From Levilinea sp. (GTDB taxonomy: Bacteria; Chloroflexota; Anaerolineae; Anaerolineales; Anaerolineaceae), in assembly GCA_029975215.1 (NCBI GenBank), contig JARKPO010000005.1, positions 1 through 64,000 of the forward strand: a stretch of DNA of 64,000 bases, in the 5' to 3' direction. Position numbers and translations under genes: made by a program. The first letter of the stretch is position 1. Each line of letters opens with the position of its first letter. Positions 18,012 to 49,004 of the stretch are shown in pieces. The notes beneath the pieces were generated by a model. It saw only the letters and a program-made list of their open reading frames with translations. It had not been told where the DNA came from and did not search any database.

Positions 18012-19670
18012 TCAGGTATAATGAACCCGCTTGGAGAGGTGCCGGAGTGGCCGATCGGGGCGGTCTCGAAAACCGTTGTGGCGCTCGTCGTCACCGTGGG
18101 TTCGAATCCCACCCTCTCCGCAGCTACAACTTTTTTGTTCGACAAGAGGTGAAAACGCTTCCGTTGGTTGAAGAGCCACAAACGCGTCGCCTCGGATGAA
18201 AGCTGCCCGGATGGCCGTCCGGAGCAGCTTTTTTCTTTCGGTTGGTAAAGTACTGTCCCAAGCCTCTACACCTGTCAAAATCGCCTGGGCCAATGTCATT
18301 GTAGCATTGATATTGGTGTTTTGCAAGCTATTTAAGGTCTTTTCGTACCTGTTTTTCTCCTCGGCGAATATTTCGCGGGTGATTTCACCATCGATGTAAA
18401 GTTCCTTCGCTCGTTCCATTCTGCTCTCTGCATCCAGCTCTTTTTGGTGCTGATCGTAGATTTCGCGCGAATTTTGCCAGTTGTAGCTGTTGTCTCGTAT
18501 CCATGACAACAGCTGCAACTCCAGTTCATTCGCTCGAGTTGATTTCTGTTGGCAGGTATGCGTCCGATCAATCAATGCGGAATCTCGATAGTATCGCCGT
18601 CCTTCGGAAGAAACGCCGCGCACCGTGGAACCGCAGTAACCACAGAAAAGGGATCCGGTCAGAGGGTAGACCTGAACTCCTCTTTCTCCCTTTTTCTTGC
18701 AATTGAATCCATTGAGAGACCGAAGTTCAGCAGCTCTTTGGAAATCTTCCGGTGAAATAATCGCCGGATGTTTCCCATCGAAGAGTTCCATTTCCCCCAA
18801 TTCGCTTCGTTTCGTATGGCGGCTGCCCAACTTTTTGGAGCTTAGGTATGGAACTTTTCCGATATAGAAAACACGAACCATGGTATTGCGCACCGTATCT
18901 TTCGTGAATGCACCCGGGTTTGAAAATCCCGGATGACCACGCTGCCGAATTTTTACAGAGTAACCATCCGGAAGTGTAAGGGTGTAGTCATTCAACCGAT
19001 CCGCGATATCCATGAAGGAGGTGTTGCCTTCGAGATACCATTTGAAGATGAGCTTCACCACCTCTGAATCGATGGGGTGAACGATCAAGCGTTTTCCATC
19101 GGTTTTATTCGGTGTACCATATTCCGGGCAGTAATCTTTTCCGTTTGGTTCGGTACATTCGGCACAAAGCCCACGGCAGTACCCTAAAGGAGCAAAGCCA
19201 TTCCATAATCCTTCCCTGGCTCTTTGGCGTTTCCCTTTGATTGTTTCCTGACGTAAATTGTCCAGATAAATTTCGGCCAGGATGCCCAAAACGGTGAGCA
19301 TGAGTTTGCCCCAAGGGGATGTAAAATCAAGGCGTTCTTGGACCGACACGAAAGAAACGTCAAAGCCGCGTAGTTCATCCAATGCGGTCAACAAGCCAGC
19401 CAGGTGACGATAGAAGCGGTCTACCTTATCGACAATCACCACATCGAATTTCCCGGCTTCTGCGTTCTGCATCAATTGAGCCAAAGCTGGGCGGTGACTG
19501 TCCTTTTTGGCGGAAATACCCGCATCGGTATAAAGTTCAATCAATTCCCAATCATTATGCTTTGCATAATCTCGAATATTCTTCTCCTGTGCGTCTAAAC
19601 TGTGACCATCCACCTGTTCCCGCATGGAAACCCGACGATAACCAACTGCTCTTAGCCTATCTTTCTCCAT
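18012..19670 (-). CDS. Large serine recombinase (integrase) reading into tRNA-Ser
   Basis: The 552-aa protein has a resolvase catalytic domain (residues 5-150, nucleophile Ser in GYRRVSMREQ, helix in VDKVDRFYRHL). A Cys-rich insertion near 180 (CRGLCAECTEPNGKDYC) is followed by a recombinase domain, a zinc ribbon (FCGYCGS, then C) and a coiled coil. The last ~32 residues (GEGGIRTHGDDERH and on) are merely the antisense of tRNA-Ser, so the frame crosses the attachment junction. The element-encoded protein proper likely ends near LVEQKSCSC. AGGAG precedes the ATG. Confidence 0.9.
   Translation of the reverse strand: MEKDRLRAVGYRRVSMREQVDGHSLDAQEKNIRDYAKHNDWELIELYTDAGISAKKDSHRPALAQLMQNAEAGKFDVVIVDKVDRFYRHLAGLLTALDELRGFDVSFVSVQERLDFTSPWGKLMLTVLGILAEIYLDNLRQETIKGKRQRAREGLWNGFAPLGYCRGLCAECTEPNGKDYCPEYGTPNKTDGKRLIVHPIDSEVVKLIFKWYLEGNTSFMDIADRLNDYTLTLPDGYSVKIRQRGHPGFSNPGAFTKDTVRNTMVRVFYIGKVPYLSSKKLGSRHTKRSELGEMELFDGKHPAIISPEDFQRAAELRSLNGFNCKKKGERGVQVYPLTGSLFCGYCGSTVRGVSSEGRRYYRDSALIDRTHTCQQKSTRANELELQLLSWIRDNSYNWQNSREIYDQHQKELDAESRMERAKELYIDGEITREIFAEEKNRYEKTLNSLQNTNINATMTLAQAILTGVEAWDSTLPTERKKLLRTAIRAAFIRGDAFVALQPTEAFSPLVEQKSCSCGEGGIRTHGDDERHNGFRDRPDRPLRHLSKRVHYT
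18017..18022 (+). promoter_or_regulatory. -10 box of tRNA-Ser
   Basis: TATAAT at 18017-18022, 10 bases before the mature tRNA 5' end. Confidence 0.6.
18033..18120 (+). tRNA. trnS: tRNA-Ser (CGA anticodon), element attachment site
   Basis: This is an 88-base class II tRNA. The acceptor GGAGAGG (18033-18039) pairs with CCTCTCC (18113-18119), followed by discriminator G. The anticodon loop TCTCGAAAA gives CGA, and there is a long variable arm (GTTGTGGCGCTCGTCGTCACC). CCA is not encoded. The foreign serine-recombinase frame begins immediately downstream and runs antisense through the tRNA, marking the 3' end as the likely attachment site. Confidence 0.95.
18201..18236 (+). terminator. Terminator-like hairpin downstream of tRNA-Ser
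   Basis: AAGCTGC-CCGGA and TCCGG-AGCAGCTT pair around TGGCCG and are followed by TTTTTTC. It can end the tRNA-Ser transcript although it lies inside the antisense recombinase frame. Confidence 0.6.
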
Positions 19671-20284: not shown

Positions 20285-21925
20285 ATGCCAATTGAAGACG
20301 ACCTGATCGATTTTTTCGCGCAAAATGAACGGGGTAAATTTGATCGAAATGTCGAGGCGTTTTTGTTTCGTTTCGGCTTTTTTCGAGCCGCAATCTGGCC
20401 GACATTGGAAGAAATCGGTAAAGAATATATGTCGGAGGAAGGAGATGCACGAAGTAAGCGAGAGCTTGTTCGGCAGAAAATGGAGGATAAAATAAATACG
20501 CTTTTAGCTTCACCTCCCCTGCCATCCGTTCAACTTTTGGTTAATACATTTACCACCACTCAATTTGTTCGCTGGTCGGTACTGGCTCACCGTTTGTTTG
20601 AATTGGGGCTGGTCGGACAAACGGAAGAATGCAACATCCGGGGCTTGTTAAATTTAACCCAAGCTCTGAATACTTGTCAACATTTGGAAATCTATGATTT
20701 GAGACTTAGTAATGTAAGGCGGGTGGATTACAAATTAGGACAAGAATATTTCATTGTTGATCAAGGTTTGATTGAAAAACTGAAACATGCCATTGATCTT
20801 GCGGACACAATATCCGGGGATTTTGGATTGGTTCCCTTTTCTTTTCTACGTGAAAATTTGGGGGCACTTATAGATATAGCAGACATTGTCTTTGAAGCCG
20901 TTCAGTTCAATCCCGATGTAATCTGGGTCAAAGATAGTAAAGGCGAAACCTATTATCACTTTATTCATAAAAAAGATGGGTTTGTTTCCTGTTTAGGCCG
21001 AATTTTTTCGGTTACAGATCGAGTTCATCTCAATGATCTTGTCGAAGCCATGCGCCGTTCTGTCGTCAGGAGGCAGGGCAAAAAAGCTCGCCAGCTTTTA
21101 AAACCTGATGCTATTGTAAACTTTATCCGAGCTTATCGTCCTCTTCAGCTTACCGGGGATTGGGTGACTTTTTCTGGGGAACGACAGTCCGTACGTGATA
21201 TTGAGTCGGTTGCGGTAAAACTCTTACGGGAAAAAAGCCCGGTGGTCTATCATGACCTTTATAAAACTTTGCGGGATAAGGGATATGGAGAAGCCAGCAT
21301 CGATGATGTGATTTATCATTCCCCCATTATCAGTATGGATGTCAGTAAAGGCTATGGAAATTATCAGTATTCATTGATCGGTCAGGGTTCCGGCGCCTTT
21401 GTCCCAGAAGATGTGCAAGATGAACACGAAGATTGGCGCAACATTTCGCCCCAAGATTTTAAGGAGAAGCAGGATGAAGCAGATTCTATCGGGCAATTGG
21501 GGGAGGAATATGTGAATGCCTTTTTGACCGATGAAATCAGAAAAGAAAGAATTCTCAGTTTTGAGTGGGTTTCTCAAAAACATCCCACAGCGCCGTTTGA
21601 TTTTCAGGTATGTACTAAGGATGGCAATGAAATGTTCATTGATGTGAAATCAACCGGATGGGGATTTGCCGCTAACCTCCACATTTCATATGGAGAGCTA
21701 TGCAAGATGGGGGCGAGCCAGAATTACCATATTTTCCGCGTCTACGATGTGCGTCCTGATGTTGCGAAACTCAGAATTTCGGTCAATCTGAATCAATTCG
21801 CCAATAAGATCATACCTTACATTGAGCAAATGCCTTTCGAGATTTATCCTGATAGCATTGTTCTGGATCCCTCTCTGATACATTTCGACAGGGAGATTGT
21901 GCTCATAGAGGGGAGACATAATTAA
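20285..21925 (+). CDS. DUF3883-type nuclease-like protein with sigma-4-like HTH
   Basis: A 546-aa protein. Near residues 36-65, WPTLEEIGKEYMSEEGDARS followed by RELVRQKMEDKI resembles the region-4 helix-turn-helix of sigma factors. The middle (about 170-370) has no recognised family. The C-terminal part (400-500) looks like DUF3883: GQLGEEYVNAFL, PFDFQV, then MFIDVKST, which together form a PD-(D/E)xK-like D...DxK core. Such proteins occur in restriction and anti-phage loci. Function is inferred; the gene is AT-rich relative to the host. Confidence 0.6.
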   Translation: MPIEDDLIDFFAQNERGKFDRNVEAFLFRFGFFRAAIWPTLEEIGKEYMSEEGDARSKRELVRQKMEDKINTLLASPPLPSVQLLVNTFTTTQFVRWSVLAHRLFELGLVGQTEECNIRGLLNLTQALNTCQHLEIYDLRLSNVRRVDYKLGQEYFIVDQGLIEKLKHAIDLADTISGDFGLVPFSFLRENLGALIDIADIVFEAVQFNPDVIWVKDSKGETYYHFIHKKDGFVSCLGRIFSVTDRVHLNDLVEAMRRSVVRRQGKKARQLLKPDAIVNFIRAYRPLQLTGDWVTFSGERQSVRDIESVAVKLLREKSPVVYHDLYKTLRDKGYGEASIDDVIYHSPIISMDVSKGYGNYQYSLIGQGSGAFVPEDVQDEHEDWRNISPQDFKEKQDEADSIGQLGEEYVNAFLTDEIRKERILSFEWVSQKHPTAPFDFQVCTKDGNEMFIDVKSTGWGFAANLHISYGELCKMGASQNYHIFRVYDVRPDVAKLRISVNLNQFANKIIPYIEQMPFEIYPDSIVLDPSLIHFDREIVLIEGRHN

Positions 21926-21963
21926 TCCAAGTTGCCGCCTTGGGGTGGCAACTTGGATTAATT
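21920..21963. terminator. 17-bp perfect inverted repeat between convergent genes
   Basis: The arm at 21920-21936 (AATTAATCCAAGTTGCC) pairs perfectly with 21947-21963 around a 10-base loop. It overlaps the stop of the DUF3883 gene and ends beside the stop of recombinase 2. A bidirectional terminator is most likely, although the T-tracts are short. Confidence 0.6.
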
Positions 21964-23767
21964 AACTGTACGAATAGCATGGCAGTAATCTGTCAAAAGG
22001 TTCGTGGGCCAGGATGAGCCGAATTTTGGAAGTTGGGTCAAAGTAAATAGAGAGAAACATGACCTTTAGCAGCTTTTTCCGTTCGGTCATATTGAAGGTT
22101 GCCCAGATCTTTGGAAATTCCTTCAATAAACCCATGATTTCGCGCGCTTCCGGCTGTGAAGTGGGTTGGTAAGTCTCAAGATTTTTACCGATCGTCAATG
22201 CTTTTTCCTGGAAATCGGGCAGGCTAATAAAGCCATTGGAGTACAGTTCCTTCGCCCGGTTCAGTTCCTGGCGCAAGTTGTAGCTTTCCCGTTCGAACTC
22301 CGCCATCCCGTCGTCGCTAAGGTAATAGGCAGCGATCATCTCGTACCAGGCTTCAGGGATAGAAAACTGGGAGACCAGGTGGTCGACTTGAGCTTCAGCG
22401 ATCTTTGCTCTCAGATTTGTATCGTGCGCATCGACCAGTTCACGCCAGTTCTCATCCTCAACGGTCTGGATGCCGTCATTTTCTAGAACTTCCCCTAATA
22501 CCACTTTACTGGAGTTTCCTTTCCGTTTGTCCAGCATCACCGCGCAGCGATAATATTGGTTCTGGCTCCCGCCCAGTGAACCCCGCAGACCAACTTTATG
22601 ATGTCCGTGTTCATAACATACCCAGCAGCGACCAATGCCGCTTAAGAGATATTCGTGATGTTGTCTTGTTCGATCTGTTGTGGGCGTATTCGCTTTGGCC
22701 TGACGGCGTTGCATATTCCGCTTCCACAAATCAGCAGAATAGAGCGGTTCATGGACACCCTGTGTCAGAACCTGGGGATTACGCCGATTCTCCAGGGCAA
22801 TACTGGTATTGCGTTTCTTGGGATTTTCCGGGTCGTCTTCCATATCCAACGGGCGGGTAGGGTAGTGCGCCACCAGGCCAACGTAATACGGGCTTCGAAT
22901 AATCACACGGATGCTATCTCTACTGAAAGCTCCAGGCCTTTTCTGGTTTGGTAGACCCTTGGTGCGGAAATGGATCAGCGATCCATCTGGTAAACGGAAC
23001 AGGTGACGGTTCAGGTCGTCGGCAACTTCCAGATCGCTCTTTCCCTGGGCGTACAGGTTGACCGCCAGTCGAACCCCATGCGCTTCGACTGGATGGGGAA
23101 CTGCGATCCGGCCGCGCTGACTTTCGACTCTATCCGGTTTGCCATATTGTGGGCAGTAATCTTTGCCGTTCGGATCGGAACAAGTTGAGCACAGACCATT
23201 GCAGTAACCGAAGCGAAAGGATGCATTGGACAGCCCACGCATCACCCGCTCGAGTTTTGCCTCCCGAGTACGGGCAGAGGATTGCCAAATGTACATTTCA
23301 GCCAGGGCGCCAAGAACGTAGAGCACCAGACGCCCCCACCAGTTATCGGTATCAATCTGTTCTGTCACCGATACCAGGCGCACGCGATAACGCTTGATCA
23401 TTCTCAGAAAGCGCAGAAGCGATTCCAGGTTTCGATACAGACGGTCCAGACGATGGACAACCACGATCGTGATGCGTCCGGCCTTGATGTCATTGATCAT
23501 GTGCTGCAGTTCGGGCCGGCGGCTATTCCGTCCGGTTCTAGCCGGGTCTTCGTACACCTGGTAGATTTGCCAACCCTTTGTTTTGGCATACTCCTCAGAG
23601 CGATCCGGCTGAATATCCAACGAATATCCGTGAGCGCGATGATCGATCCGGGACACGCGCGTGTAAATCCCTGCCATTTCCGATCCATCAGGCCGGTTCA
23701 ATTCTTTTACGTATCCCTGGATTTTCTTGTTCAAATCATCCAGGCTGTTTGGGATGAAATCCAACAT
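21962..23767 (-). CDS. Second large serine recombinase
   Basis: The 601-aa protein has its catalytic domain at about residues 32-175 (IYTRVSRIDH with nucleophile Ser; VHRLDRLYRNLESLL). A Cys-rich insert (CNGLCSTCSDPNGKDYC) matches that of recombinase 1. A recombinase domain, a Cys/His zinc site (GRCWVCYEHGHH...YRCAVM) and a coiled coil follow. A 30-residue extension precedes the catalytic domain. It is the last gene of a three-gene operon whose promoter carries ComA-box-like operators (24503-24560). Confidence 0.9.
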   Translation of the reverse strand: MLDFIPNSLDDLNKKIQGYVKELNRPDGSEMAGIYTRVSRIDHRAHGYSLDIQPDRSEEYAKTKGWQIYQVYEDPARTGRNSRRPELQHMINDIKAGRITIVVVHRLDRLYRNLESLLRFLRMIKRYRVRLVSVTEQIDTDNWWGRLVLYVLGALAEMYIWQSSARTREAKLERVMRGLSNASFRFGYCNGLCSTCSDPNGKDYCPQYGKPDRVESQRGRIAVPHPVEAHGVRLAVNLYAQGKSDLEVADDLNRHLFRLPDGSLIHFRTKGLPNQKRPGAFSRDSIRVIIRSPYYVGLVAHYPTRPLDMEDDPENPKKRNTSIALENRRNPQVLTQGVHEPLYSADLWKRNMQRRQAKANTPTTDRTRQHHEYLLSGIGRCWVCYEHGHHKVGLRGSLGGSQNQYYRCAVMLDKRKGNSSKVVLGEVLENDGIQTVEDENWRELVDAHDTNLRAKIAEAQVDHLVSQFSIPEAWYEMIAAYYLSDDGMAEFERESYNLRQELNRAKELYSNGFISLPDFQEKALTIGKNLETYQPTSQPEAREIMGLLKEFPKIWATFNMTERKKLLKVMFLSIYFDPTSKIRLILAHEPFDRLLPCYSYS

Positions 23768-23779
23768 GGTCAGCCTATC

Positions 23780-23995
23780 CTAATCGTCTGTTTTATTTTC
23801 CGATGGTGTTTCATTTTGGGTGTCGGTTGGATGATCTTTCTCATCGCTCAAAAAGTCCAGATCGTTTTCAACCACCTTACCGGTAATCCTCCGGAGTGCT
23901 AAAGCCAGCTCATAGCAAAACTCGCGGATTTTCTCCTGTGAGGCGCGATCTGCTCGGGGGCTTTGCGGTTTGTCATCTGGCGCATTTGCATTCAC
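23780..23995 (-). CDS. Small protein of the recombinase operon
   Basis: A 71-aa protein of unknown family. The GTG start at 23995 is chosen because GGAGG lies just upstream within the end of the preceding gene, giving a 23-base overlap. The central part is helical (KIREFCYELALALRRITGKVVE) and the ends are acidic/polar. Its place between the 142-aa protein and recombinase 2, 12 bases before the latter, suggests an accessory such as a recombination directionality factor, but this is inference only. Confidence 0.55.
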   Translation of the reverse strand: MNANAPDDKPQSPRADRASQEKIREFCYELALALRRITGKVVENDLDFLSDEKDHPTDTQNETPSENKTDD

Positions 23996-24401
23996 CGGCC
24001 ACCTCCAAGAGCTTCTCAGCAAATTGCTTCAGCGCTTCATCAATTGTTCGCTCCTGATCCGATTGATCCACCCGCCTGGCTTGCACAGAACGCACACTTT
24101 GAGCCAGATACTTCACTGCTACATGCAGTCCGTCGATCTGGCGAAGGAGTGTGGTATGGTCGTTGCCGTTAGGCGCGATAACGCTTGTTGACATTGCGTC
24201 AACCACATTTTCGATCGTTGTGCTGACGAACAGCGAACTCCAGGCGATCCGCTGAAGCTCTACGCTCATTGCCTTCAGATGAGATGAATTAAGGTTTGCA
24301 TTTTCTTGATCAAATTGGTCCGCAAGTTTATGCAGTGACTCGGACACTCCTGATACCTTGGTGTTCAGTACCTGGTCGATATCAAAAACACGATCGTTCA
24401 T
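23973..24401 (-). CDS. Helical protein leading the recombinase-2 operon
   Basis: The 142-aa protein is almost wholly alpha-helical with heptad-like spacing (VSESLHKLADQFDQENANL; IDEALKQFAEKLLEVAG). No family is recognised. GAGGAAT precedes ATG 24401. It is first in the operon with the 71-aa protein and recombinase 2, directly downstream of a TATAAT box and a ComA-box-like array, so it is expected to be expressed with the recombinase under quorum control. Confidence 0.6.
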   Translation of the reverse strand: MNDRVFDIDQVLNTKVSGVSESLHKLADQFDQENANLNSSHLKAMSVELQRIAWSSLFVSTTIENVVDAMSTSVIAPNGNDHTTLLRQIDGLHVAVKYLAQSVRSVQARRVDQSDQERTIDEALKQFAEKLLEVAGECKCAR

Positions 24402-24463: not shown

Positions 24464-24469
24464 ATTATA
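24464..24469 (-). promoter_or_regulatory. -10 box of the recombinase-2 operon
   Basis: TATAAT on the minus strand, with no good -35 hexamer 17 bases upstream (CTAGCA). It lies 33 bases from the proximal half-site of the ComA-like array, the layout of an activator-dependent promoter. Confidence 0.65.
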
Positions 24470-24502: not shown

Positions 24503-24560
24503 CCGCAAGAAACGTTGCGGATTCCCGCAAAAAAACGGTTTTCATTGCGGAAACCCGCAA
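24503..24560 (-). promoter_or_regulatory. ComA-box-like operator array upstream of the recombinase operon
   Basis: Half-site CCGCAA (24503-24508), six bases GAAACG, palindrome TTGCGGATTCCCGCAA (24515-24530), 14 bases, then palindrome TTGCGGAAACCCGCAA (24545-24560). TTGCGG-N4-CCGCAA is the ComA recognition dyad known from Bacillus srfA. The half-site lies nearest the promoter. The layout is identical to the array before the comX-like gene (28849-28906). Confidence 0.85.
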
Positions 24561-24569
24561 AACGACAGG

Positions 24570-24598
24570 TAAATAAAAACCCCGGCAAGAAGCCGGGG
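24570..24598 (-). terminator. Terminator of the com-like operon
   Basis: On the minus strand CCCCGGC and GCCGGGG pair around TTCTT, followed by TTTTTATTT (24579-24571). It lies 24 bases after the regulator stop. Confidence 0.85.
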
Positions 24599-24621
24599 CC
24601 TGAGTTTGTTATTCGTCTCAA

Positions 24622-25254
24622 CTAAAGTAAGCCGTGTTCTTGAGCCCAAATCACCGCACTGGGTCTGGTGGTGACCCCTAACTTGTCGTAGATGTTGGAT
24701 ATGTGGAATTCGACGGTTCGCTCTGCCATATGGAGGCGTGAAGCGATGTCTTTTGTGGTTAAGCCATCTGCAATCAGCCGGATTACTTCACACTCTTTTT
24801 CCGTCAGAACGCCGGAATTCGTTTGCGATGGATTATCGCGAAATTTCCCCATCATCATAGTTGCTACGGAAGGTCCTACCCAATTTCTGCCTTTAATAAC
24901 AGAACGGACCGCTTCTGGAACGACGAATGGATCTTCTTCCTTCAAAACGTAGCCGTGCGCGCCGGCTTTCAGCATGGATGTAACAGTACCTTTATCCCCA
25001 TGAGCCGTCAGCACCAACACTTTTATAGCGGGATGGGATTTCCCCAGCCGTCTGATAACCTCCACTGCTTTGATCCCTGGCATGCTGATATCCAGGATCA
25101 CCACATCAACCGGCGCTTCATTGACTTTCACAATCACCTCGTCGCCATCGACCGCCTCACCCGCGATTTCAAAATCGGCATGACGGGACAATTCGGCTTT
25201 CAAGCCGGAGCGAAAAATCGGATGATCATCCGCTATCAAAATACGCGTTCTCAA
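24622..25254 (-). CDS. ComA-like NarL/LuxR-family response regulator
   Basis: The 210-aa protein is close to Bacillus ComA (214 aa). The receiver starts ILIADDHPIFRSGL, with phosphoacceptor Asp in VVILDISMPG, switch Thr in LTAHGD and Lys in LKEEDP. The C-terminal LuxR HTH is TEKECEVIRLIADGLTTKDI and ERTVEFHISNIYDKLGV. A TTG start at 25254 is chosen because GGAGG lies 5 bases upstream; the longer frame would overlap the kinase gene. Likely phosphorylated by the adjacent kinase and binds the two TTGCGG-N4-CCGCAA arrays. Confidence 0.88.
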   Translation of the reverse strand: MRTRILIADDHPIFRSGLKAELSRHADFEIAGEAVDGDEVIVKVNEAPVDVVILDISMPGIKAVEVIRRLGKSHPAIKVLVLTAHGDKGTVTSMLKAGAHGYVLKEEDPFVVPEAVRSVIKGRNWVGPSVATMMMGKFRDNPSQTNSGVLTEKECEVIRLIADGLTTKDIASRLHMAERTVEFHISNIYDKLGVTTRPSAVIWAQEHGLL

Positions 25255-25274
25255 ATCTACCTCCGATAAAGTTG

Positions 25275-27620
25275 TTAAATTGGAACCTGGGCGGACAGAA
25301 TGCAGCCCTGGCCCGGGCTCGATGAAATCGACAAACAACCATTCACAGCTTCAACCATTTCTTTTATGCCTATCAGACCGTAGTGCCGATTCGGGACCAA
25401 AAGCTCCAGCCGGTCAGGCACCGTGAAACCCTTTCCGTTATCCGTTACCATCACGGAAACCTGTTCCGATGTGACTTTGACCCACACCTCCACATGATCA
25501 GCGTGGGCATGTTTATAGATATTGATCAGGCTTTCCTGGACCAAACGGTAGATGCATAGCTTGACATCCTCGCCCATTTCCTGGTTTTCATTTCCCTCGA
25601 TGAGAACGCGAACCTTGAAATCAGCGTTTTCTTCAACTTCATAAATTTTGGACTGTATGGCTTCAAAGAAATTGAGCACGTCAAGCGTTGGTGGACGCAA
25701 ATCATCACAAATCTGCCTCAACACGCCGATCATCTCCTGAATTTCTGTCTGCACTTTCACGAGATTATCAGTTTGCGCGCCATTCAATTGGCTTCGAATC
25801 CCAGCCATCTGGTAATTCAGGCCGGCTAACGATTGGATGACCAGATCGTGCAGGTCGCGCGCCAACCGCTTGCGCTCCTCTTCGCGGCCGCGCAAAACTT
25901 GCCGGTGGAGCCGGCTTATCTTTTCCAAATGCGTTTGGGCTTCTTCCAACAGCTTTGCGTTCTCTAGAGTCATCTGGGCCTGGTGGATTACGACCTTCAG
26001 AATTTCAAAATCGGGCTCGCTCAGCGGTTCTCCATCCCGTTTTACACCAAGTAAAAGAACACCTGACAAGCGGGCGTCGTCCCCTTTTAGGGGAACCACG
26101 TGTGTTGGATGGACCCCATTTTTCGAGGCCCATGGATAGGCAGCGGCATATTCTTGTTTCCAGGGCAGAAAATCGTTGGGTTTGTTCGTAAAAAGTACTT
26201 CAAAATCGCCAAGATCACATTTCTGGTCATCCGGTAGCGTTTCTGTCCGGACGGTAAGGCCGTGTTCATACGTAAACCTGATCTTGTCAGGCAAGATAAG
26301 ATAGGCTGTTTCCAGACGCATGGATTGCCCAATCACCTGGGTCAGGGATGCCCCGATCGATATTTGATTTTGCTCGGTTGTGGTCAAGGAGTGCCTCGTT
26401 TGTTCGACTACGGTGCGGAAATCGTACCATCCACCATACAGGAGCTGGTTGACAAAGCGGGTCAGGACGCCATAAAGTTTGACCGCGGAACCAGCAAGGA
26501 TGACGGTCGTGACCAGCCCCCAGACCGGAGAGTGGGTCAGCGATGGTGAAATAAACGTTGATGTGAGTGAAAAACAAAGCGAATAAATGCCGGTTAGAAG
26601 CAAACCCACGAGAACAATTGCCAGGCCCCGGTTAATGGTGTCTTTTACGCCGACCAGTCGGTAGCGGTAAATCGCAAAACCATAACCTAAGGGCAGAGTT
26701 AACAATGCAAGAAAAGCCAATTCGAACGATACGACGGGATGCCCGCTAATCACCTGCGGGATGATGACCAGAGTAATCACGGGAACGATTCCGATCAGGC
26801 CGCTCAGAACGATCAACCCGACCTGGTATCGTTCCAGTGCAGTCGTGGCATTTCTGAACGAGCGGGTCAGGAGATAAATTACCGCGAGCATGTCAATGGC
26901 AAATATCGTGAAGATAATATTTGACACGATATGATCCTGGAGGAGTCCGACGCCTGCGAATGAGTTCCAAACATTTAGAAGACAGAACAGAATACTTGCT
27001 GCCACCAAGGCGTATCCTGCCCTGGGACTAAAATTACGAACCTTGACGGGAAATACCACATGAAGGTGAACGGCCAAAGTCCCCAACCAAAGGATGCCGC
27101 AATGGAACCCCACCTTCGTCCAATCGGGGCCATATGTGCTGATCGCACCACACGTGAGTGAAACCACCGCGCTTTGACTAACCAGGAAAAAGAGGATCGA
27201 TTGGACACGCGCCCGGCTGAAGGCCAGCACATAACCACCCACAAGCCAGAAACCGAAAGCGACAAGGAATGCTGGTAAACGATTGAGAATGGCTCGGAAA
27301 CTTGATGGTGTGACCTGGACCGCCAAATTCTGTATCTGGCCATCGCGCTCAACATCGATCCGGATAGTCTGATCAATTTCAGTTCTCGTCAATTTGTATA
27401 AATCCGCTGCCGATTTATCGCCAGCCGAGATGATCCTGTCACCAATTTGGAATGTCTTGGATGAAGGATGGCCGGCGTCGACATCATAGACGACGCCGGA
27501 CCGATAACCCCAATAGGCGCCAATGCTTGGCTTCTGTACGGCTAGCAATACCGACCATCCGATCCAGACCAATGTAATTACCGATATTCCGTGCAGAAGC
27601 ACAAGCAAGGCTTTTTTCAA
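25275..27620 (-). CDS. ComP-like polytopic sensor histidine kinase
   Basis: The 781-aa protein starts with a membrane segment, then a PDZ-like outer domain (about 40-105, FQIGDRIISAGDKSAADLY). Eight or nine further membrane segments run to about 400, followed by a GAF-like region. HisKA_3 has H-box RKRLARDLHDLVIQSLAGL and the HATPase ends VTDNGKGFTVP and HYGLIGIKEM. The polytopic N-terminus with a PDZ-like loop is the layout of Bacillus ComP. Start overlaps the ComQ-like stop by 4 bases (ATGA). Confidence 0.88.
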   Translation of the reverse strand: MKKALLVLLHGISVITLVWIGWSVLLAVQKPSIGAYWGYRSGVVYDVDAGHPSSKTFQIGDRIISAGDKSAADLYKLTRTEIDQTIRIDVERDGQIQNLAVQVTPSSFRAILNRLPAFLVAFGFWLVGGYVLAFSRARVQSILFFLVSQSAVVSLTCGAISTYGPDWTKVGFHCGILWLGTLAVHLHVVFPVKVRNFSPRAGYALVAASILFCLLNVWNSFAGVGLLQDHIVSNIIFTIFAIDMLAVIYLLTRSFRNATTALERYQVGLIVLSGLIGIVPVITLVIIPQVISGHPVVSFELAFLALLTLPLGYGFAIYRYRLVGVKDTINRGLAIVLVGLLLTGIYSLCFSLTSTFISPSLTHSPVWGLVTTVILAGSAVKLYGVLTRFVNQLLYGGWYDFRTVVEQTRHSLTTTEQNQISIGASLTQVIGQSMRLETAYLILPDKIRFTYEHGLTVRTETLPDDQKCDLGDFEVLFTNKPNDFLPWKQEYAAAYPWASKNGVHPTHVVPLKGDDARLSGVLLLGVKRDGEPLSEPDFEILKVVIHQAQMTLENAKLLEEAQTHLEKISRLHRQVLRGREEERKRLARDLHDLVIQSLAGLNYQMAGIRSQLNGAQTDNLVKVQTEIQEMIGVLRQICDDLRPPTLDVLNFFEAIQSKIYEVEENADFKVRVLIEGNENQEMGEDVKLCIYRLVQESLINIYKHAHADHVEVWVKVTSEQVSVMVTDNGKGFTVPDRLELLVPNRHYGLIGIKEMVEAVNGCLSISSSPGQGCILSAQVPI

Positions 27621-28561
27621 TTTACAGCCACTCCTAACCAGGATAAATGGTTCAGCATTTTCAGGATTCTCTCGTGAGGCTCTTTTGCTAGCGGTATTGC
27701 GCGGAGTTCACTCCTGCCAATTTCGGCGTACTTCATCGCTTCCAGCCTCAGATAGAGGATCAGGCTGTTCTGTAGCGAATCTGTTTGTGCTTTTGGCCCG
27801 AATCCCAAGTAAATGGGATCTTGACCGCTCAAGCCCAGGTAGCTCAAGTAGGCGTTTGCCATTGGACTGAGAGTGTGGTTTCCTGCCTGTTTGATGGCAT
27901 CCGCCTCAAGATCCTTTAGATCATCCGATATCTGTACAATTGTCCCAACGGCAGTTCCGAATTTGTCGAAATGCAGAAGTCGATCGGTTTGATTGGTCGC
28001 AACGCGTGCGCCAACGTAGCAGCCCAGGCCAAAGGCCGAGCCGGATTTCTTTTGCGCAATTTCCCAACAAGTTGCCAGATCTGGCAAGGGGACAGAGAGA
28101 TCAAGATGTTGCCCCGAACATACGGAAAGGACGGTTTCGTGAAACGCCCTTTGGATATCCCAGGCTGCGCCGGCATCTATGCAATCTAACTCGAGATGGT
28201 TGAGAATCCATTCGGCGACGAATATCATCCCGGTCGACAGGTTGGTACAAATCCCCTGACCGTAGGGAGATAAGCCAGGAAGCGCGGGCTCATGATCTTC
28301 AACCTTGTCCAACACGTGCGCAGCGGTTTGAAGCAGAAACCAGGAAGTGGTCACTCCAATTGCGCGCAGGGGATTCACTCCGTTTGCCTCGCAACACAAA
28401 AAAGGAAGACAAACTGGAGGCTCGCTGGCTTTAAAACGATGAAATTGCATTTGCAGGTAATCTTGCCCAACCGACAACAGCAAATTTCGATAAGATGGCG
28501 CGAGATCGATCCGCCGCAGCGCAAGCGCCAGGCGGTCGCAAATCATAGCTTCTGCGTCCAT
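27617..28561 (-). CDS. ComQ-like isoprenyl transferase (polyprenyl synthase fold)
   Basis: The 314-aa protein has the all-helical isoprenoid synthase fold. The first Asp motif is degenerate (DKVEDHE) and the second is good (QISDDLKDLEAD), as in ComQ enzymes that prenylate a Trp of the ComX peptide rather than elongate prenyl chains. Genes for carotenoid or quinone synthesis are absent nearby. It lies 3 bases after the ComX-like peptide and overlaps the ComP-like gene, so the order is X-Q-P-A. Confidence 0.82.
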   Translation of the reverse strand: MDAEAMICDRLALALRRIDLAPSYRNLLLSVGQDYLQMQFHRFKASEPPVCLPFLCCEANGVNPLRAIGVTTSWFLLQTAAHVLDKVEDHEPALPGLSPYGQGICTNLSTGMIFVAEWILNHLELDCIDAGAAWDIQRAFHETVLSVCSGQHLDLSVPLPDLATCWEIAQKKSGSAFGLGCYVGARVATNQTDRLLHFDKFGTAVGTIVQISDDLKDLEADAIKQAGNHTLSPMANAYLSYLGLSGQDPIYLGFGPKAQTDSLQNSLILYLRLEAMKYAEIGRSELRAIPLAKEPHERILKMLNHLSWLGVAVN

Positions 28562-28564
28562 CGC

Positions 28565-28771
28565 TTAGGCAGCCCAGGGTTCGGTCGTGAGCATGAAATT
28601 GCCTGCTTTGGAAATGGATTCCGGCAGCGCCAGCAGGGCTTCCAGGGCCTTTTTCTCGGTCTTTTCCAGGGCAATGCCGGCCAGTTGGAGAGCTACTTCC
28701 GCATTCATTTGCAGCGATTCGGCGAACGAAACATCCGTGGAAATCCGATAGGCAACAGTAGCGAGTGTCAT
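28565..28771 (-). CDS. ComX-like pre-pheromone peptide
   Basis: A 68-aa precursor with no signal peptide. It ends GNFMLTTEPWAA, with a single Trp third from the C-terminus, where Bacillus ComX peptides carry their prenylated Trp near the end. The start at 28771 (MTLATVAYR) has AGAGG 7 bases upstream; a frame extending to 29020 would run through the operator array and is rejected. Its position directly before the ComQ-like enzyme is the main support. Sequence similarity to known ComX is not expected, as the family is hypervariable. Confidence 0.78.
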   Translation of the reverse strand: MTLATVAYRISTDVSFAESLQMNAEVALQLAGIALEKTEKKALEALLALPESISKAGNFMLTTEPWAA

Positions 28772-28848: not shown

Positions 28849-28906
28849 CCGCAAGAATCGTTGCGGATTCCCGCAAAATTCGGCGCCTGATTGCGGATTC
28901 CCGCAA
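28849..28906 (-). promoter_or_regulatory. ComA-box-like operator array upstream of comX-like gene
   Basis: Half-site CCGCAA (28849-28854), six bases GAATCG, TTGCGGATTCCCGCAA (28861-28876), 14 bases, and TTGCGGATTCCCGCAA again (28891-28906). Every spacing equals that of the array at 24503-24560, while the 14-base spacers differ in sequence. It implies positive autoregulation of the pheromone operon. Confidence 0.85.
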
Positions 28907-29026: not shown

Positions 29027-29371
29027 CTAATCCTCGTTTTCTGCCAGGACCCCAACCAGCTTGACCGCTCTCTTTCGGTCTCGTTCAGAGAGCTTTCCGT
29101 AAGAAAATTTTAAGTGCTCGAAATCCGGGTCCAATTCAGGGGGATACGGAAGTAAACCGGCTGCGCAAAAGACTTCAACCGGATCGATCCGTAAAGCACG
29201 GGCAATTTTTAGGCATATGTCCCACCTGGGGAGAACACCTTTATTCCGAGCCTTGCTGAAATTCGTGTGGGAAATGTCCGCTCTTATGGCAAGTTGATTG
29301 TCGGTAAGATTATATTCAGCAAGTACGCTGTCCAACCATTTAACGAATACTGCGGCTTTGTCTTCTGTCAT
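29027..29371 (-). CDS. XRE-family HTH regulator upstream of the com-like operon
   Basis: The 114-aa protein (MTEDKAAVFVKW) has a Cro/CI-type HTH at about residues 18-65 (LTDNQLAIRADISHTNFSKARN). This is followed by RIDPVEVFCAAGLLPYPPE and a helical tail. ATG 29371 is preferred to a TTG seven codons upstream. It resembles the XRE protein at 19754 in its DPVEV...AAGL / NPNEI...LAG segment. It probably regulates its own or neighbouring element genes. Confidence 0.75.
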   Translation of the reverse strand: MTEDKAAVFVKWLDSVLAEYNLTDNQLAIRADISHTNFSKARNKGVLPRWDICLKIARALRIDPVEVFCAAGLLPYPPELDPDFEHLKFSYGKLSERDRKRAVKLVGVLAENED

Positions 29372-29515
29372 AATCTGTCCCTGATGGAACAAATTATGAC
29401 ATTCAAGGTTGTCATTGGTAGAACAGGATATGTTACCGGAGTGACATTTTCAATTTACCATGCATACACTAGATCAATGTGCTCCCCGGATTCTCAGCAA
29501 GTACTATGGAAATTT

Positions 29516-29842: not shown

Positions 29843-30005
29843 GCGCAGACCTCCTGCAAAATTGTGAGAAATATAATTGGTTTCTTTGAGGAGCACGAGA
29901 TCCATCTTGAAAGATAATAATACAAAACTGAACAATAATGACAATATCAGATAGCTATTTCTAGTCAAAGTGTATAATAAATTCATCTTCCTAACCGAGG
30001 ATCCC

Positions 30006-30230
30006 ATGGAAAATCACCTGCCGGAAATCATGACCATTGAAGAAGTTGCTGAATATCTTCGCGTCCCAGTTTCTTCGCTGTACAAGCTGGCCCAACAAGG
30101 GAAAATTCCGGCTTCCAAGGTGGGTCGCCACTGGCGTTTCCGACGCGAGTTCATCGACCGTTGGATCAATGACCAGGCGCGTGGTATGAAGCCGGAAAGA
30201 ACAAGTCAAAGAGGCTCAGAGGGGGAATAA
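30006..30230 (+). CDS. Excisionase-type HTH_17 DNA-binding protein
   Basis: The 74-aa protein has the MerR-like/excisionase winged HTH: EIMTIEEVAEYLRVPVSSLY, then GKIPASKVGRHWRFRREFID. The ATG at 30006 follows GAGGATCCC. Such proteins act as Xis factors or small regulators. It precedes the defence island in the same orientation. The following 236 bases hold only a possible 24-codon frame (30233-30307) and short AT-rich inverted repeats. Confidence 0.8.
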   Translation: MENHLPEIMTIEEVAEYLRVPVSSLYKLAQQGKIPASKVGRHWRFRREFIDRWINDQARGMKPERTSQRGSEGE

Positions 30231-30466: not shown

Positions 30467-33109
30467 ATGCACCTTTACGAGCTCCTCGCCGACAAAGTAA
30501 CCGAATGGCGTAAAAAGGGTTATGCCACCCCAGATCATCCTGCGATAGCGGAGATCCTGGACTATGCCTGGTTAACGCCTAGCGAGCAGCCGCGCGCCCT
30601 GCGCCTGGCGCAAATTCGTGCCCTCGAAACGTATTGGTATCTGCGGCTCATCGATGGCACGCCTCACATCACCCAGCTCTACAAGCGCCTTTTCCCCAAA
30701 AAGAGCGACCGGGCCAAAGCGTTCGGCATGGACCACCCTGACATGTTGCAAATGCTGATCGACTATGACCTGGACGATCTGCTCGAGCAGGTGCGGACGG
30801 ATGACGCGATGGTCAAGAAATATCGCCTCGAAGCCCTGCGCGAGACACTGGCGCTCGATTATCCTAGCTACATCCTGGCGCTGGCCATGGGCGCAGGCAA
30901 GACCATGCTGATTGGGACAATTATTGCTACCGAGTTTGCGATGGCGTTAGAAACACCCGATGGGCCTTTTATCCAAAATGCCCTGGTCTTCGCTCCCGGA
31001 AAAACCATCCTTGATGCGCTGCGGGAACTGGCCGATGTGCCATACGATCAAATCCTGCCGCCGCGGCTCTACAAGCAGTTCATCACCAACTATAAGCTAA
31101 CTTTCACCCGCGATGGGGAGAAAGACCTGCCTATCATCCGCGGCAGCCGCTACAATATTGTTGTAACCAACACAGAGAAAATTCGTATTCAAAAGCGCTC
31201 TGTGCGCTCGCGCCAGGGCTGGACCCAGCTTAAGTTAAACGAGCTGGAGAAACAGGAAGAGGAAATCGCCAATCTGCGCCTGCAGGCGGTGGCCAGCCTG
31301 CCTCACCTGGGGATTTTTTCGGACGAAGCCCACCATACTTACGGCCAGGCGATGGAAGCCGACTTAAAACGCGTCCGACAGACGGTCAACTATCTCCACG
31401 AGAACACAAATCTGATCGCCGTGGTTAACACCACTGGCACGCCCTATTACCAGAAGCAGCTCCTGAAGGACGTGATCGTCTGGTACAGCCTGTCACAGGG
31501 CATCCGCGACGATATTCTCAAAGATTTGTCGGGTAACATCTACAGCTACCGTTTCAACGATGAAAACACCGACGCTTTTGTGGCTGAAGTGGTGCGCGAC
31601 TTCTTCCAGACTTACGGCGATGTGGCGTTGCCGGATAGATCGCCGGCCAAGCTGGCCATGTACTTCCCCCAGGAAGATGACCTACAAACCCTGAGGCCTG
31701 TCATCGAAGGCGTGCTGGTTGAGTTGGGACGCGATCCGGCGATGGTGCTGCGCAATACCTCTCAGTCTTCCCAGGCCGAATTGGATGCTTTCGCCCGCCT
31801 GAACGAACCCGGTGCGACCCACCGAATTATTCTGCTAGTCAACAAGGGTACGGAGGGCTGGAATTGCCCCAGCCTGTTTGCGACGGCTCTGGCACGCAAG
31901 CTGCGATCCAGTAACAACTTCGTTTTACAGGCTGCCACGCGCTGCCTGCGCCAGGTGCCCGGCAATACTCATAAGGCTCGCGTATATCTTTCTCAGGATA
32001 ATTACAGCACACTAGACGCCCAACTTCAGGAGACATACGGCGAGCGCCTGGCCGACCTGAACCAGACTGCCGCCCAGTCACGGACGGTCCGTTTGGTGGT
32101 ACGTAAAGTGGATATCCCGCCCCTGGTGGTCCGCCGCCTGGTGCAGACCATAGTGCCGATTGAAGGGGTGAAGAGGCCTGCTCTGCACCTGAGCAAGGTC
32201 GCCGCTCGCACGACGGAAGAGCTGATCCGAGAACGCGCCACCCTCACAAGCGCGGACACTCCCGGTACAGGCGAAAGGAATGTGCTGACCTTTGTGGACA
32301 AAACCGTCATCGATGGCGCTCCACAGGAGATCGACTTGTATCAGGCTTCCACCCAATTGGGCGCCACCTACCGACTTGACGCAGGTGACTTATACCGCCA
32401 ACTGCGACAAGTTTACGCGCCTGAGCGCAAGATTCCGGAAGCTCATCTGTTGGAACTGGCCGGTCAGATTGAAGCCCAGGTGCAGCTCTATGCGGTTCAG
32501 ACCGAGACGGTCGAGGACGCGCTGGCGCTGGTCCGGCTGGATGGCTTCGAACAGGCCGTCGAGCAGGGAGAAGTGGTATACACAACGACCATCAGCGTGC
32601 CGGTGGATCGTTTCCATCTAATCGCCGATGGGAAGGGCAGAGATCGCTACGGTTTCCACTACAGCCCCTACAATTTCGACTCGGGCGCGGAAAGATCTTT
32701 CTTCTCCTGGCTGCTGCAGCGCCTGGGAGAAGACCCGGACGATATTCAGGATGTGTATTTCACCGGCGGCCTGACTGCCGAGAAGCATTCCGACTTTTAT
32801 GTCGAGTACAAGGGCGTCGATGGCCGCCCGCACCGCTACGTTCCGGACTTCCTGTTGCGCAAACGCGACGGTCGCAGCTTGATTGTCGAGATCAAAGATG
32901 CTCGCTGGCAGGAGTCGGTCGAACAGGATTTGCAGCGCGCCGGCCAGGGACAGGAAGCCTTGAGCGTGGAGGGGCGCAAACTGATCGCACTCGACCGCTG
33001 GACGCAGCTCTCGCCGGAACAGTTGGCTTACCATGTCATCTTCGCGGCCAGTGAAAACTTACCTCATGATGACCTGGCGCAGATAAATCTCTTCTTCTTG
33101 CGTGAGTAG
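30467..33109 (+). CDS. Type III restriction-like helicase/nuclease (Res subunit)
   Basis: An 880-aa protein. The SF2 helicase core has Walker A (ALAMGAGKTMLIG) at about residue 145, Walker B SDEAHHTYG at about 285, VNTTGTPYY (motif III) and VNKGTEGWNCPSLF with QAATRCLRQ (motifs V/VI). The C-terminal PD-(D/E)xK endonuclease shows RYVPDFLLRKRDGRSLIVEIKD at about 785-806. This is the layout of type III restriction subunits. The methyltransferase partner lies at 35322, with two genes between, which is unusual. GC-rich. Confidence 0.85.
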   Translation: MHLYELLADKVTEWRKKGYATPDHPAIAEILDYAWLTPSEQPRALRLAQIRALETYWYLRLIDGTPHITQLYKRLFPKKSDRAKAFGMDHPDMLQMLIDYDLDDLLEQVRTDDAMVKKYRLEALRETLALDYPSYILALAMGAGKTMLIGTIIATEFAMALETPDGPFIQNALVFAPGKTILDALRELADVPYDQILPPRLYKQFITNYKLTFTRDGEKDLPIIRGSRYNIVVTNTEKIRIQKRSVRSRQGWTQLKLNELEKQEEEIANLRLQAVASLPHLGIFSDEAHHTYGQAMEADLKRVRQTVNYLHENTNLIAVVNTTGTPYYQKQLLKDVIVWYSLSQGIRDDILKDLSGNIYSYRFNDENTDAFVAEVVRDFFQTYGDVALPDRSPAKLAMYFPQEDDLQTLRPVIEGVLVELGRDPAMVLRNTSQSSQAELDAFARLNEPGATHRIILLVNKGTEGWNCPSLFATALARKLRSSNNFVLQAATRCLRQVPGNTHKARVYLSQDNYSTLDAQLQETYGERLADLNQTAAQSRTVRLVVRKVDIPPLVVRRLVQTIVPIEGVKRPALHLSKVAARTTEELIRERATLTSADTPGTGERNVLTFVDKTVIDGAPQEIDLYQASTQLGATYRLDAGDLYRQLRQVYAPERKIPEAHLLELAGQIEAQVQLYAVQTETVEDALALVRLDGFEQAVEQGEVVYTTTISVPVDRFHLIADGKGRDRYGFHYSPYNFDSGAERSFFSWLLQRLGEDPDDIQDVYFTGGLTAEKHSDFYVEYKGVDGRPHRYVPDFLLRKRDGRSLIVEIKDARWQESVEQDLQRAGQGQEALSVEGRKLIALDRWTQLSPEQLAYHVIFAASENLPHDDLAQINLFFLRE

Positions 33110-33119
33110 GAGCTGAACA

Positions 33120-34019
33120 ATGTCAGTTTCGAGTGTTGAAGAAAATGCTTTTCAGATGGTTCGTTATATGGTTGAAGTCGGCCGTAAGGTATATTCGTGG
33201 GGCGATGTCAGGCAAGAATTGGAAATACCCCCCACCGATTTTGAAGCTGCTTACAACTATCTTTATGGAAACGACTGCTGTCATGCTGCCGGGCAATTAG
33301 GAGATGATGCGACAATATTGATAGACAAAGGTGGCTATTCCTTTTATGGAAAATTTAAAGAGCAGAGGATCAATTTTCCGAGAGAAGCTGAGAAACTGCT
33401 TAAATACCTCGTGGAAGCTCAAAAGCCCGGGTTTCCATTTAATAACGGTGATGCTGTTATGAAAGCATTCGGATGGGATAAAGACCTATTCATGCAAGCG
33501 GCACAAGCATTAGGTGATGAGGGTTTAGTTCGTGGACAGGCTGCAGACAATAACCCTTATTGGTTAATCAGCGTAACATCGGAAGGAAGAAATATTGTGA
33601 GATCGAATTTTCGACGATCTGGTATGAACAGTGGCGTTCACACCGGAGATATCACTACCCATATACATGGAAATAACAACGTGCTTTCGATTGGCTCGAT
33701 TCTGACATCTGCCAGCCAGTCTATTCAAATAAGTTCCGCTATTAACGATTCTGATAAAGCGGCGATTGGGGATCTGCTGGATCGGTTGAACAATGATTTA
33801 CAAGAGGTGCCGGAAGATCGCGCCGATGATGCAGAAGCGGTGGCTGAAACAGCAAAAAGCTTGGTTGAAAGTGCATCCAAAGAAAAACCTAACAAAAGAT
33901 TGCTAGCGATAAATATCGAAGGACTGAAGAAGGCGGCTGAAAACATTGCAGCGATCACTCCCCGGGTTCTCACCACTGCACTTGCTATCATTTCATTTGT
34001 TGAGAAATTGCCTAAATAG
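33120..34019 (+). CDS. Double winged-helix protein in the restriction locus
   Basis: The 299-aa protein has two predicted winged-helix regions: about residues 5-85 (VYSWGDVRQELEIPPTDFEAAYNYL) and 90-165 (EAEKLLKYLVEAQ, DEGLVRGQAADN). A Gly/Asn-rich link (THIHGNNNVLSIGSI) like those before effector modules in conflict systems follows. The helical C-terminus ends in a hydrophobic stretch (VLTTALAIISFVEKL). Family unknown. It starts 10 bases after the Res stop, so it is co-expressed. Confidence 0.55.
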   Translation: MSVSSVEENAFQMVRYMVEVGRKVYSWGDVRQELEIPPTDFEAAYNYLYGNDCCHAAGQLGDDATILIDKGGYSFYGKFKEQRINFPREAEKLLKYLVEAQKPGFPFNNGDAVMKAFGWDKDLFMQAAQALGDEGLVRGQAADNNPYWLISVTSEGRNIVRSNFRRSGMNSGVHTGDITTHIHGNNNVLSIGSILTSASQSIQISSAINDSDKAAIGDLLDRLNNDLQEVPEDRADDAEAVAETAKSLVESASKEKPNKRLLAINIEGLKKAAENIAAITPRVLTTALAIISFVEKLPK

Positions 34020-34044
34020 CATCTTCAATTGCTGAGGACCACAA

Positions 34045-35211: not shown

Positions 35212-35230
35212 GAATGGGGTAAGCGAACCG

Positions 35231-35293
35231 TTATGTAAGTTTTCTCCGAAATATTTACATAAAAAATTCCCTATGTAAGCGGGTTTACATAGG
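35231..35293 (+). promoter_or_regulatory. Paired TATGTAA palindromes before the methyltransferase gene
   Basis: TTATGTAA (35231-35238) with TTACATAA (35255-35262), then CCTATGTAA (35270-35278) with TTACATAGG (35285-35293). Four copies of the same heptamer alternate in orientation within 63 bases, directly before the ribosome site of the methyltransferase. They probably form an operator; the winged-helix of the Fic protein just upstream is a candidate binder. Confidence 0.6.
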
Positions 35294-35321
35294 ACAATGA
35301 TTGCCAGAAAAGGATGATTGC

Positions 35322-37277: not shown

Positions 37278-37368
37278 AATTCGGTATGATCTGATCTAAA
37301 TGAAAAGATTACCCTTACCACAACAAGAAAATTCATTGAGCCATTGATGGAACGATATAGGAGGAAAT

Positions 37369-40086: not shown

Positions 40087-40115
40087 GAATCGATGCAGAA
40101 AAGATCGGGGGAACA

Positions 40116-45498: not shown

Positions 45499-45536
45499 AA
45501 TTCGTGAATTGGTTTTCATTGCTTTTGGAAAAAACG

Positions 45537-45568
45537 AAAGGAGCTGGGAAAATCCAGCTCCTTTTTTT
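45537..45568. terminator. Terminator closing the defence island
   Basis: AAAGGAGCTGG (45537-45547) pairs with CCAGCTCCTTT (45554-45564), followed by TTTT. It serves the PLD-helicase gene and also lies at the end of the convergent minus-strand helicase gene. Confidence 0.9.
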
Positions 45569-48921: not shown

Positions 48922-48948
48922 ATTCGGCTCCTTTGGGGAAAATAAAAA

Positions 48949-49004
48949 GACCCCGCAGGAGTCGCGATTCACCCCTGGAGGGGAAAGCGCGCCCCTCCGG
49001 GGTC
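48949..49004 (-). other. Two-stem hairpin before the methylase-helicase gene
   Basis: GACCCC (48949-48954) pairs with GGGGTC (48999-49004) and GGAGGGG (48977-48983) with CCCCTCC (48992-48998). There is no U-tract. It belongs to the series of intergenic hairpins in this operon. Confidence 0.5.

Follow-up and report, generated by a model that had tools for sequence, protein, structure and literature searches.

Is prenyl-peptide quorum sensing of the ComQXPA kind confined to Firmicutes, or can it also reside in a mobile element of a distant phylum? We addressed this question at a locus of Levilinea sp. (Chloroflexota, Anaerolineae; assembly GCA_029975215.1), using the first 64,000 nt of contig JARKPO010000005.1, hereafter referred to as the window. 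Four genes, named here X, Q, P and A (Table 1), likely form one operon, and we consider it probable that this operon is a ComQXPA/PalQX-like prenyl-tryptophan peptide quorum system, carried by a likely integrative element and likely controlling a serine recombinase. An initial annotation had read the genes as a ComX-ComQ-ComP-ComA set in a putative mobile element; the flanking ComA-type boxes, the link to the recombinase and the class-wide spread go beyond it.

Table 1. Features of the X-Q-P-A operon and its surroundings (positions within the window)
Feature	Coordinates	Strand	Description
X	28565-28771	minus	68-aa precursor peptide with NHLP-like leader; Trp66 is the predicted prenylation site
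Q	27617-28561	minus	314 aa, trans-isoprenyl-diphosphate-synthase-like, predicted tryptophan prenyltransferase; D85-x3-D89, Q210, D213, D217
P	25275-27620	minus	781 aa, TTG start; PDZ and polytopic sensor histidine kinase with ComP-homologous sensor
A	24622-25254	minus	210 aa, TTG start preceded by GGAGG; NarL/LuxR-type response regulator whose context and recognition helix resemble those of ComA
Box 1 before X	28891-28906	minus	TTGCGGGAATCCGCAA
Box 2 before X	28861-28876	minus	TTGCGGGAATCCGCAA; extra TTGCGG at 28849-28854
Box 1 before recombinase gene set	24545-24560	minus	TTGCGGGTTTCCGCAA
Box 2 before recombinase gene set	24515-24530	minus	TTGCGGGAATCCGCAA; extra TTGCGG at 24503-24508
Terminator-like hairpin	24577-24601	minus	3' of A; consensus match only, the scan yielding no excess over shuffles
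142-aa protein	23973-24401	minus	first gene past the downstream boxes; conserved in L002-L004
80-aa ORF	23780-24022	minus	conserved in L002-L004
Large serine recombinase	21962-23767	minus	Resolvase and Recombinase domains; predicted signal target
XRE-type regulator gene	29027-29371	minus	upstream of X; conserved in L002-L004
Excisionase/Mad1-like helix-turn-helix (HTH) protein	29970-30230	plus	conserved in L003 and L004
Second serine recombinase of element	18012-19670	minus	frame overlaps tRNA-Ser
tRNA-Ser (CGA)	18033-18121	plus	likely left end of element

The layout given in the initial annotation was confirmed: all four linked genes lie on the minus strand, separated by a 3-nt gap (X-Q), a 4-nt overlap (Q-P) and a 20-nt gap (P-A), and the X-Q-P-A order differs from the Q-X-P-A order present in the annotated Bacillaceae plasmid loci that supplied our reference ComQ, ComX, ComP and ComA. 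The Pfam scan assigned Q weakly to PF00348 (polyprenyl synthetase, 7.9e-11), P to PDZ_2, HisKA_3 and HATPase_c, and A to Response_reg and GerE, in agreement with the earlier calls of an isoprenyl-synthase homologue with a degenerate first Asp motif, a polytopic PDZ-containing HisKA_3 kinase and a 210-aa LuxR-type regulator; X returned zero matches at E up to 1. The peptide does end in TTEPWAA (MLTTEPWAA), with Trp66 of 68 third from the end. By reading open reading frames (ORFs) and domains, we found no exporter, transporter, immunity or protease gene within the operon, and the Bacillus loci examined likewise lack an exporter or protease gene in theirs. Relatives were drawn from 41 loci (L numbers): the window, four loci from named genomes (two Chloroflexi/Anaerolineaceae metagenome-assembled genomes (MAGs), Longilinea arvoryzae and one further Chloroflexota MAG) and 36 stretches from a search of 396 Anaerolineae genomes.

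We then compared the kinase with ComP. A profile of the sensor half of P (27 rows) scored 89 bits with ComP of Anoxybacillus and 79 bits with that of Priestia, while 200 shuffled sensors reached at most 2.1. Among 305 ORFs, four exceeded the inclusion line, all of them ComP or ComP pieces; matches at 27 and 13 bits were pieces of a broken ComP in the B. velezensis record. Judged by this sequence comparison, the P sensor is homologous to the ComP sensor. The 27 profile kinases are Q neighbours found with the P of the window, so the profile was built from its own search matches and its 35 hits are not independent; eight of these are new, including a 19-bit piece in L057. Three kinase-domain ORFs were missed by the profile, two being fragments without a sensor and one an unlinked 556-aa kinase (L005). 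In the Levilinea genome, the P sensor matched at P alone, a search that diverged paralogues may escape; the single Anoxybacillus ComP sensor matched nothing there and missed even P, so we do not take the P-only match as proof of uniqueness.

The operon is flanked by two pairs of boxes of the pattern TTGCGG-N4-CCGCAA, the canonical ComA site of B. subtilis (excerpts of PMC4797271). Within each pair the boxes stand 30 bp apart, and one more TTGCGG follows the pair. The exact pattern occurs in five copies in the whole 4.3-Mb genome, four of which flank the operon, compared with zero copies of a reversed-pattern control; the sole exact box away from the operon is at G000:C31:56674-56689. Both pairs are kept in L002 and L003, with zero other exact copies in their genomes, and in Longilinea (L004) the box before X is exact and the one after A carries a single mismatch. 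A scan for short palindromes in front of X, run on the 28 loci that have X, gave TTGCGG boxes in these four box-bearing loci only. The recognition helix of A reads ERTVE in all four, and the wider form R-[ST]-[VI]-E was present in 3/3 ComA proteins and 4/4 box-bearing loci, but in 0/31 other readable regulators next to Q. The combination of a ComA-type regulator with TTGCGG-N4-CCGCAA sites, a trait of ComQXPA, is thus found here in both the boxes and the helix residues. A promoter scan gave no more sites than its shuffles; a TATAAT at 24464-24469, past the downstream boxes, was noted by visual inspection alone.

The precursor X matched 29 database clusters at 57-99% identity, one of them holding the X of the window itself. 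Trp is present in 29 of 30 aligned rows, the single exception having a different tail; the Glu-Pro-Trp core is conserved, and the leader residues MTLAT.AYRIS.DVSFA are invariant among the aligned rows. In NCBIfam, X matched the Os1348-family NHLP-clan leader (NF038399; E 7e-6), scoring 26 bits where the cut-off of the model is 40. Of ten distant precursors, nine matched this model at E up to 0.01, and two, closely related to one another, exceeded the cut-off, relatives reaching 46 bits. A leader-only profile recovered 23 precursors from 40 loci; every one of them has Trp in the tail, compared with 52 of 110 other small ORFs at the same places, and Trp made up 6.3% of tail residues versus 0.27% of leader residues. 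The expectation that related loci carry a small Trp-containing ORF was therefore borne out (an X homologue in 28/41 loci and tail Trp in 23/23 leader-found precursors). The tails are otherwise highly divergent (EPWAA, QQWVP, LWVPPNLP, GKWG, PWG, GWGPGFWGA). The precursors of L044-L046 carry three to five tandem cores of the GPNGPWGWQF kind; such Trp-rich repeats (GPNGPWGWQF, GPNGPWDWQF) adjoin Q-type enzymes at L044:1517-1945, L045:9846-10184 and L046:7488-8042 and are candidate multi-core prenylated ribosomally synthesised and post-translationally modified peptides (RiPPs). X did not match the ComX family PF05952, which recovered two control ComX proteins at 72.4 and 25.6 bits. An hhalign comparison of ComX with the leader family aligned the two in register (P 0.0024, above 30/30 column shuffles), yet its probability of 12% is weak.

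For the enzyme Q, 77 database clusters were found, one of them holding the window's own Q. Its first Asp motif is DKVED and its second QISDDLKD, relatives mostly having LDKVED and Q-I-x-D-D-x-x-D. The residues of PalQ that bind metal and recognise Trp are D89, D93, Q197, D200 and D204 (excerpts of PMC10853753); their counterparts in Q, with the same spacing within each motif, are D85, D89, Q210, D213 and D217; across 34 aligned sequences, only D217 falls just short of being invariant. The predicted structure (mean predicted local distance difference test score, pLDDT, 87) has the trans-isoprenyl-synthase fold (Foldseek/VIA-align against PDB), with canonical synthases as best matches; the tryptophan prenyltransferase Ord1 (9v4g) ranked 42nd (E 1e-6), below many of these, so the substrate of Q cannot be read from its fold. 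In a 61-row tree, Q fell within a 48-row clade (support 99/99), the canonical synthases of its own genome formed a separate clade together with three other loci, and ComQ formed a clade of its own (4 rows, 100/100) outside the Q clade. Set against the alternatives of ComQ and a housekeeping synthase, Q thus lies outside the canonical clade but outside the ComQ clade as well. It shares the fold of canonical isoprenyl diphosphate synthases (IDSs) and differs from them in its separate clade and in DKVED instead of an intact DDxxD. Neither a tblastn search of Q against plasmids nor the viral contigs searched yielded a relative.

At E up to 1e-10, 84 of the 396 Anaerolineae genomes matched the Q alignment, weak matches including ordinary synthases. 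Among the 41 loci, a P-type kinase, in some cases truncated at a contig end and in one a 19-bit piece, lay directly downstream of Q in 34 by the sensor profile (29 by the P sensor of the window alone), and an X homologue lay upstream of Q in 28. Q with this kinase and X is thus spread in Anaerolineae; exact boxes accompany it in four loci only. Seven loci lacked the kinase; three of these (L064, L066, L073) group with canonical synthases and L065 falls outside the main clade. A single 1067-aa frame in L057 (11178-14381) joins a Q-type domain (residues 59-233) to a ComP-like kinase (297-1065). Q-like enzymes also lie beside P-type kinases outside the main clade (L071:791-1723, L060:7938-8900), a small ORF of L071 ending in YGWF; these may be another lineage that follows the same logic.

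Pherotypes of Bacillus differ in ComQ, in ComX and in the part of ComP that senses the signal. Conservation there falls in the order ComA>ComP>ComQ>ComX (excerpts of PMC4008528). Compared with L002, the window shows 92% identity for A and likewise for the XRE gene, 82-97% for the kinase half of P and 81% for the recombinase, as opposed to 59% for Q and only 28% for P residues 181-240. Such a local drop in Q and the P sensor, with A and the kinase kept, would be expected of private-signal specificity variants.

The operon likely resides in an integrative element, as first proposed for this Chloroflexota-related lineage: two serine recombinases and a conserved core stand beside differing cargo. 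Both recombinases, A-P-Q-X, the XRE gene and the HTH gene are kept in L002 and Longilinea, except that L002 has no match to the HTH protein, and genes between and beyond this core differ. Colinearity with the same-genus genome G400 (89% over 8.3 kb) stops at the 3' end of tRNA-Ser(CGA), apart from a short G400-like patch of ~50 bp, to 18238, and none of eight relatives searched holds Q at E up to 1e-20. The cargo at 30-49 kb is defence-like, comprising the Mad1-like HTH, restriction-type helicases, a DNA methylase, SoFic and a PHP/SMC protein, followed on the right by sliding-clamp, RadC, Rad52 and UvrD genes; apparent housekeeping genes begin at about contig position 74,000. The search found no right end and no clean empty site, and the tRNA-Ser end repeat did not recur as a right attachment site in the window plus 20 kb. 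The defence-like stretch (30467-48972) also includes a PLD-helicase, and up to about 45.5 kb it differs in the related L002 element. Between the two serine recombinases lies a protein with a NO VEIN C-terminal domain (20285-21925), for which L002 has no room. An inverted repeat, TGTCATAAT...ATTATGACA, covers the start of the XRE gene and is a possible autoregulatory operator.

These observations suggest the following scheme. X would be the precursor, with an NHLP-like leader and the conserved Glu-Pro-Trp core, to whose Trp Q would attach a prenyl chain; host functions would then cut and export the core. P, with its ComP-homologous PDZ and transmembrane sensor, would bind this signal and phosphorylate A, which would bind the paired TTGCGG-N4-CCGCAA boxes and raise expression of X-Q-P-A and, in the observed gene order, of the 142-aa protein, the 80-aa ORF and the serine recombinase. 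Excision or integration of the element would thereby be tied to the density of its carriers. We infer each of these functional steps, from prenylation and secretion through sensing to DNA binding and recombinase control.

The same genes could instead make a prenylated RiPP that acts outward, as an antimicrobial, surfactant or membrane-active compound, with P-A merely regulating its production, in which case the locus would be a PalQX-type cluster and not a quorum system. PalX/PalQ/PalP has the same types of parts and, in the excerpts of PMC10853753, no demonstrated signalling role, X has an NHLP-like RiPP leader, and repeated cores such as GPNGPWGWQF in some relatives are unusual for a pheromone. 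We nevertheless regard this as unlikely, given that the P sensor is ComP-like and shares with Q a divergence absent from A, that the operon holds no immunity or transporter gene, and that boxes stand before both X and the recombinase set, like a feedback loop. It is very improbable that Q is an ordinary isoprenyl diphosphate synthase of the short-chain type, or else some other enzyme of small isoprenoids, X a chance or unrelated ORF and P-A a sensor of something else: PF00348, the canonical best structural matches and two largely kept Asp-rich regions are what such an enzyme would show, but the genome already has two canonical synthases with Pfam scores of 210 and 219, compared with 42 bits for Q, the Q clade stands apart from them, and X with its conserved Trp adjoins Q across the class. 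The boxes, finally, might belong to the neighbouring XRE-type regulator or be transposition-related repeats, A acting elsewhere. The XRE gene is indeed also conserved beside them, and the solved relatives closest to A by sequence are VraR-type regulators, not ComA; however, the L003 XRE gene is only 53% identical to that of the window while its boxes are unchanged and A is 91% identical, the XRE start carries a different inverted repeat (29366-29401), and the box sequence equals the ComA consensus. We consider this explanation improbable.

Several observations weigh against the quorum-system interpretation itself. The correlation of helix and boxes was noticed after the fact, and A, both as a whole and over its DNA-binding domain, is closer by score to VraR than to ComA. 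Exact boxes are absent from more distant loci, and with Q and P of L002 and L003 94-95% identical, the evidence from the boxes comes from about three independent loci. The role of the recombinase as target is predicted from position. On the side of the peptide, X by itself stays under the NHLP cut-off (26 versus 40 bits); residues after the Trp abolish PalQ activity (PMC10853753, in excerpt), and the Trp of X is not terminal; and X is 79% identical to that of L002, less diverged than Q, unlike the ComX pattern. As for the enzyme, the Q family model gave ComQ 49-83 bits, no advantage over the 38-109 bits of canonical synthases, so the substrate of Q rests on context, and PalQ stays active when D200 and D204 are both changed, the Asp residues of the second motif not being essential (same excerpts). 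Eight of the 34 kinase-linked loci have no X by profile, and L053, L058 and L068 lie within the Q clade without a kinase; L053 and L068 do have X, the kinase being absent from the stretch examined and L068 lying at a contig end, but L058, with neither kinase nor X on a 4.7-Mb contig, is a true exception. Our confidence in a quorum system was also slightly lowered by the kinase profile, partly trained on its own hits, and by the weak search for uniqueness within the genome.

If this interpretation is right, prenyl-peptide quorum sensing would be widespread in a phylum distant from Firmicutes, and many new candidate Trp prenyltransferases would come with their natural substrates. It would also raise a testable question: does a mobile element use a prenylated peptide to count carriers and so set the timing of its own movement? 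Tentatively, and with a joint claim that may well fail in one part or another, we propose that a defence-carrying integrative element has as its resident switch the first prenyl-peptide quorum system beyond Firmicutes, its carriers counting one another by a prenylated EPW peptide and turning on the serine recombinase through ComA boxes; that the X-Q-P module spans Anaerolineae, with Trp cores that vary greatly and include tandem multi-core forms; and that Bacillus ComQXPA is one branch of a much larger prenyl-Trp signalling superfamily. No title on such a system in Chloroflexota was found in a non-exhaustive search of open-licence PMC articles, preprints excluded. That ComQXPA is described in Firmicutes agrees with a 2014 census, which in its available excerpts has none beyond that phylum (PMC4008528).

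How, then, does the system compare with those already described? With ComQXPA of Bacillus and other Firmicutes it shares a precursor Trp near the C-terminus, a trans-isoprenyl-synthase-like enzyme, a PDZ and polytopic HisKA_3 kinase with a homologous sensor, a NarL-type regulator, the TTGCGG-N4-CCGCAA box and the divergence of Q and the P sensor. It differs in gene order, in an X with an NHLP-like leader and no ComX family match, and in a Q outside the ComQ clade whose first motif is DKVED and whose second is intact, whereas ComQ keeps the first Asp motif and lacks the second (excerpts of PMC10853753). Of the proposed ComX-ComQ-ComP-ComA match, the ComP-homologous sensor and the exact ComA boxes stand, while the absence of PF05952 from X and the position of Q do not fit; a similar four-part signalling set remains, set apart by its leader and its kept second Asp motif. 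Strict ComQXPA by descent throughout is, on these sequence comparisons, not supported.

PalQ/PalX is an equally close biochemical model. According to excerpts of PMC10853753, PalQ/PalX/PalP of Paenibacillus alvei has an NHLP-type precursor, to which the leader of X is similar though below the family cut-off, and resembles the operon in the conserved precursor Trp, its trans-IDS-like Trp prenyltransferase, the adjacent histidine kinase and the active-site spacing D-x3-D and Q-x2-D-x3-D; PalQ requires a C-terminal Trp, whereas X has two residues after Trp66, and those excerpts describe no response regulator or DNA box. Os1348-family NHLP-clan precursors (NF038399) have a similar leader, matched by the distant precursors as above, and differ in that X lies below the cut-off and the Trp-bearing tails fall outside the matched stretch. 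In ICEBs1 of B. subtilis, a quorum regulator with TTGCGG elements likewise acts on genes of an integrative element, with ComA targeting the promoters of rapI-phrI and yddK by way of a direct repeat (excerpts of PMC4797271); this makes the proposed logic plausible, yet is no evidence for the Levilinea element, which would itself carry the entire predicted signalling set and have its recombinase set addressed through inverted repeats. The simplest account ties the system to ComQXPA by its kinase, its regulator site and its logic, and to PalQX by its NHLP-like type of precursor.

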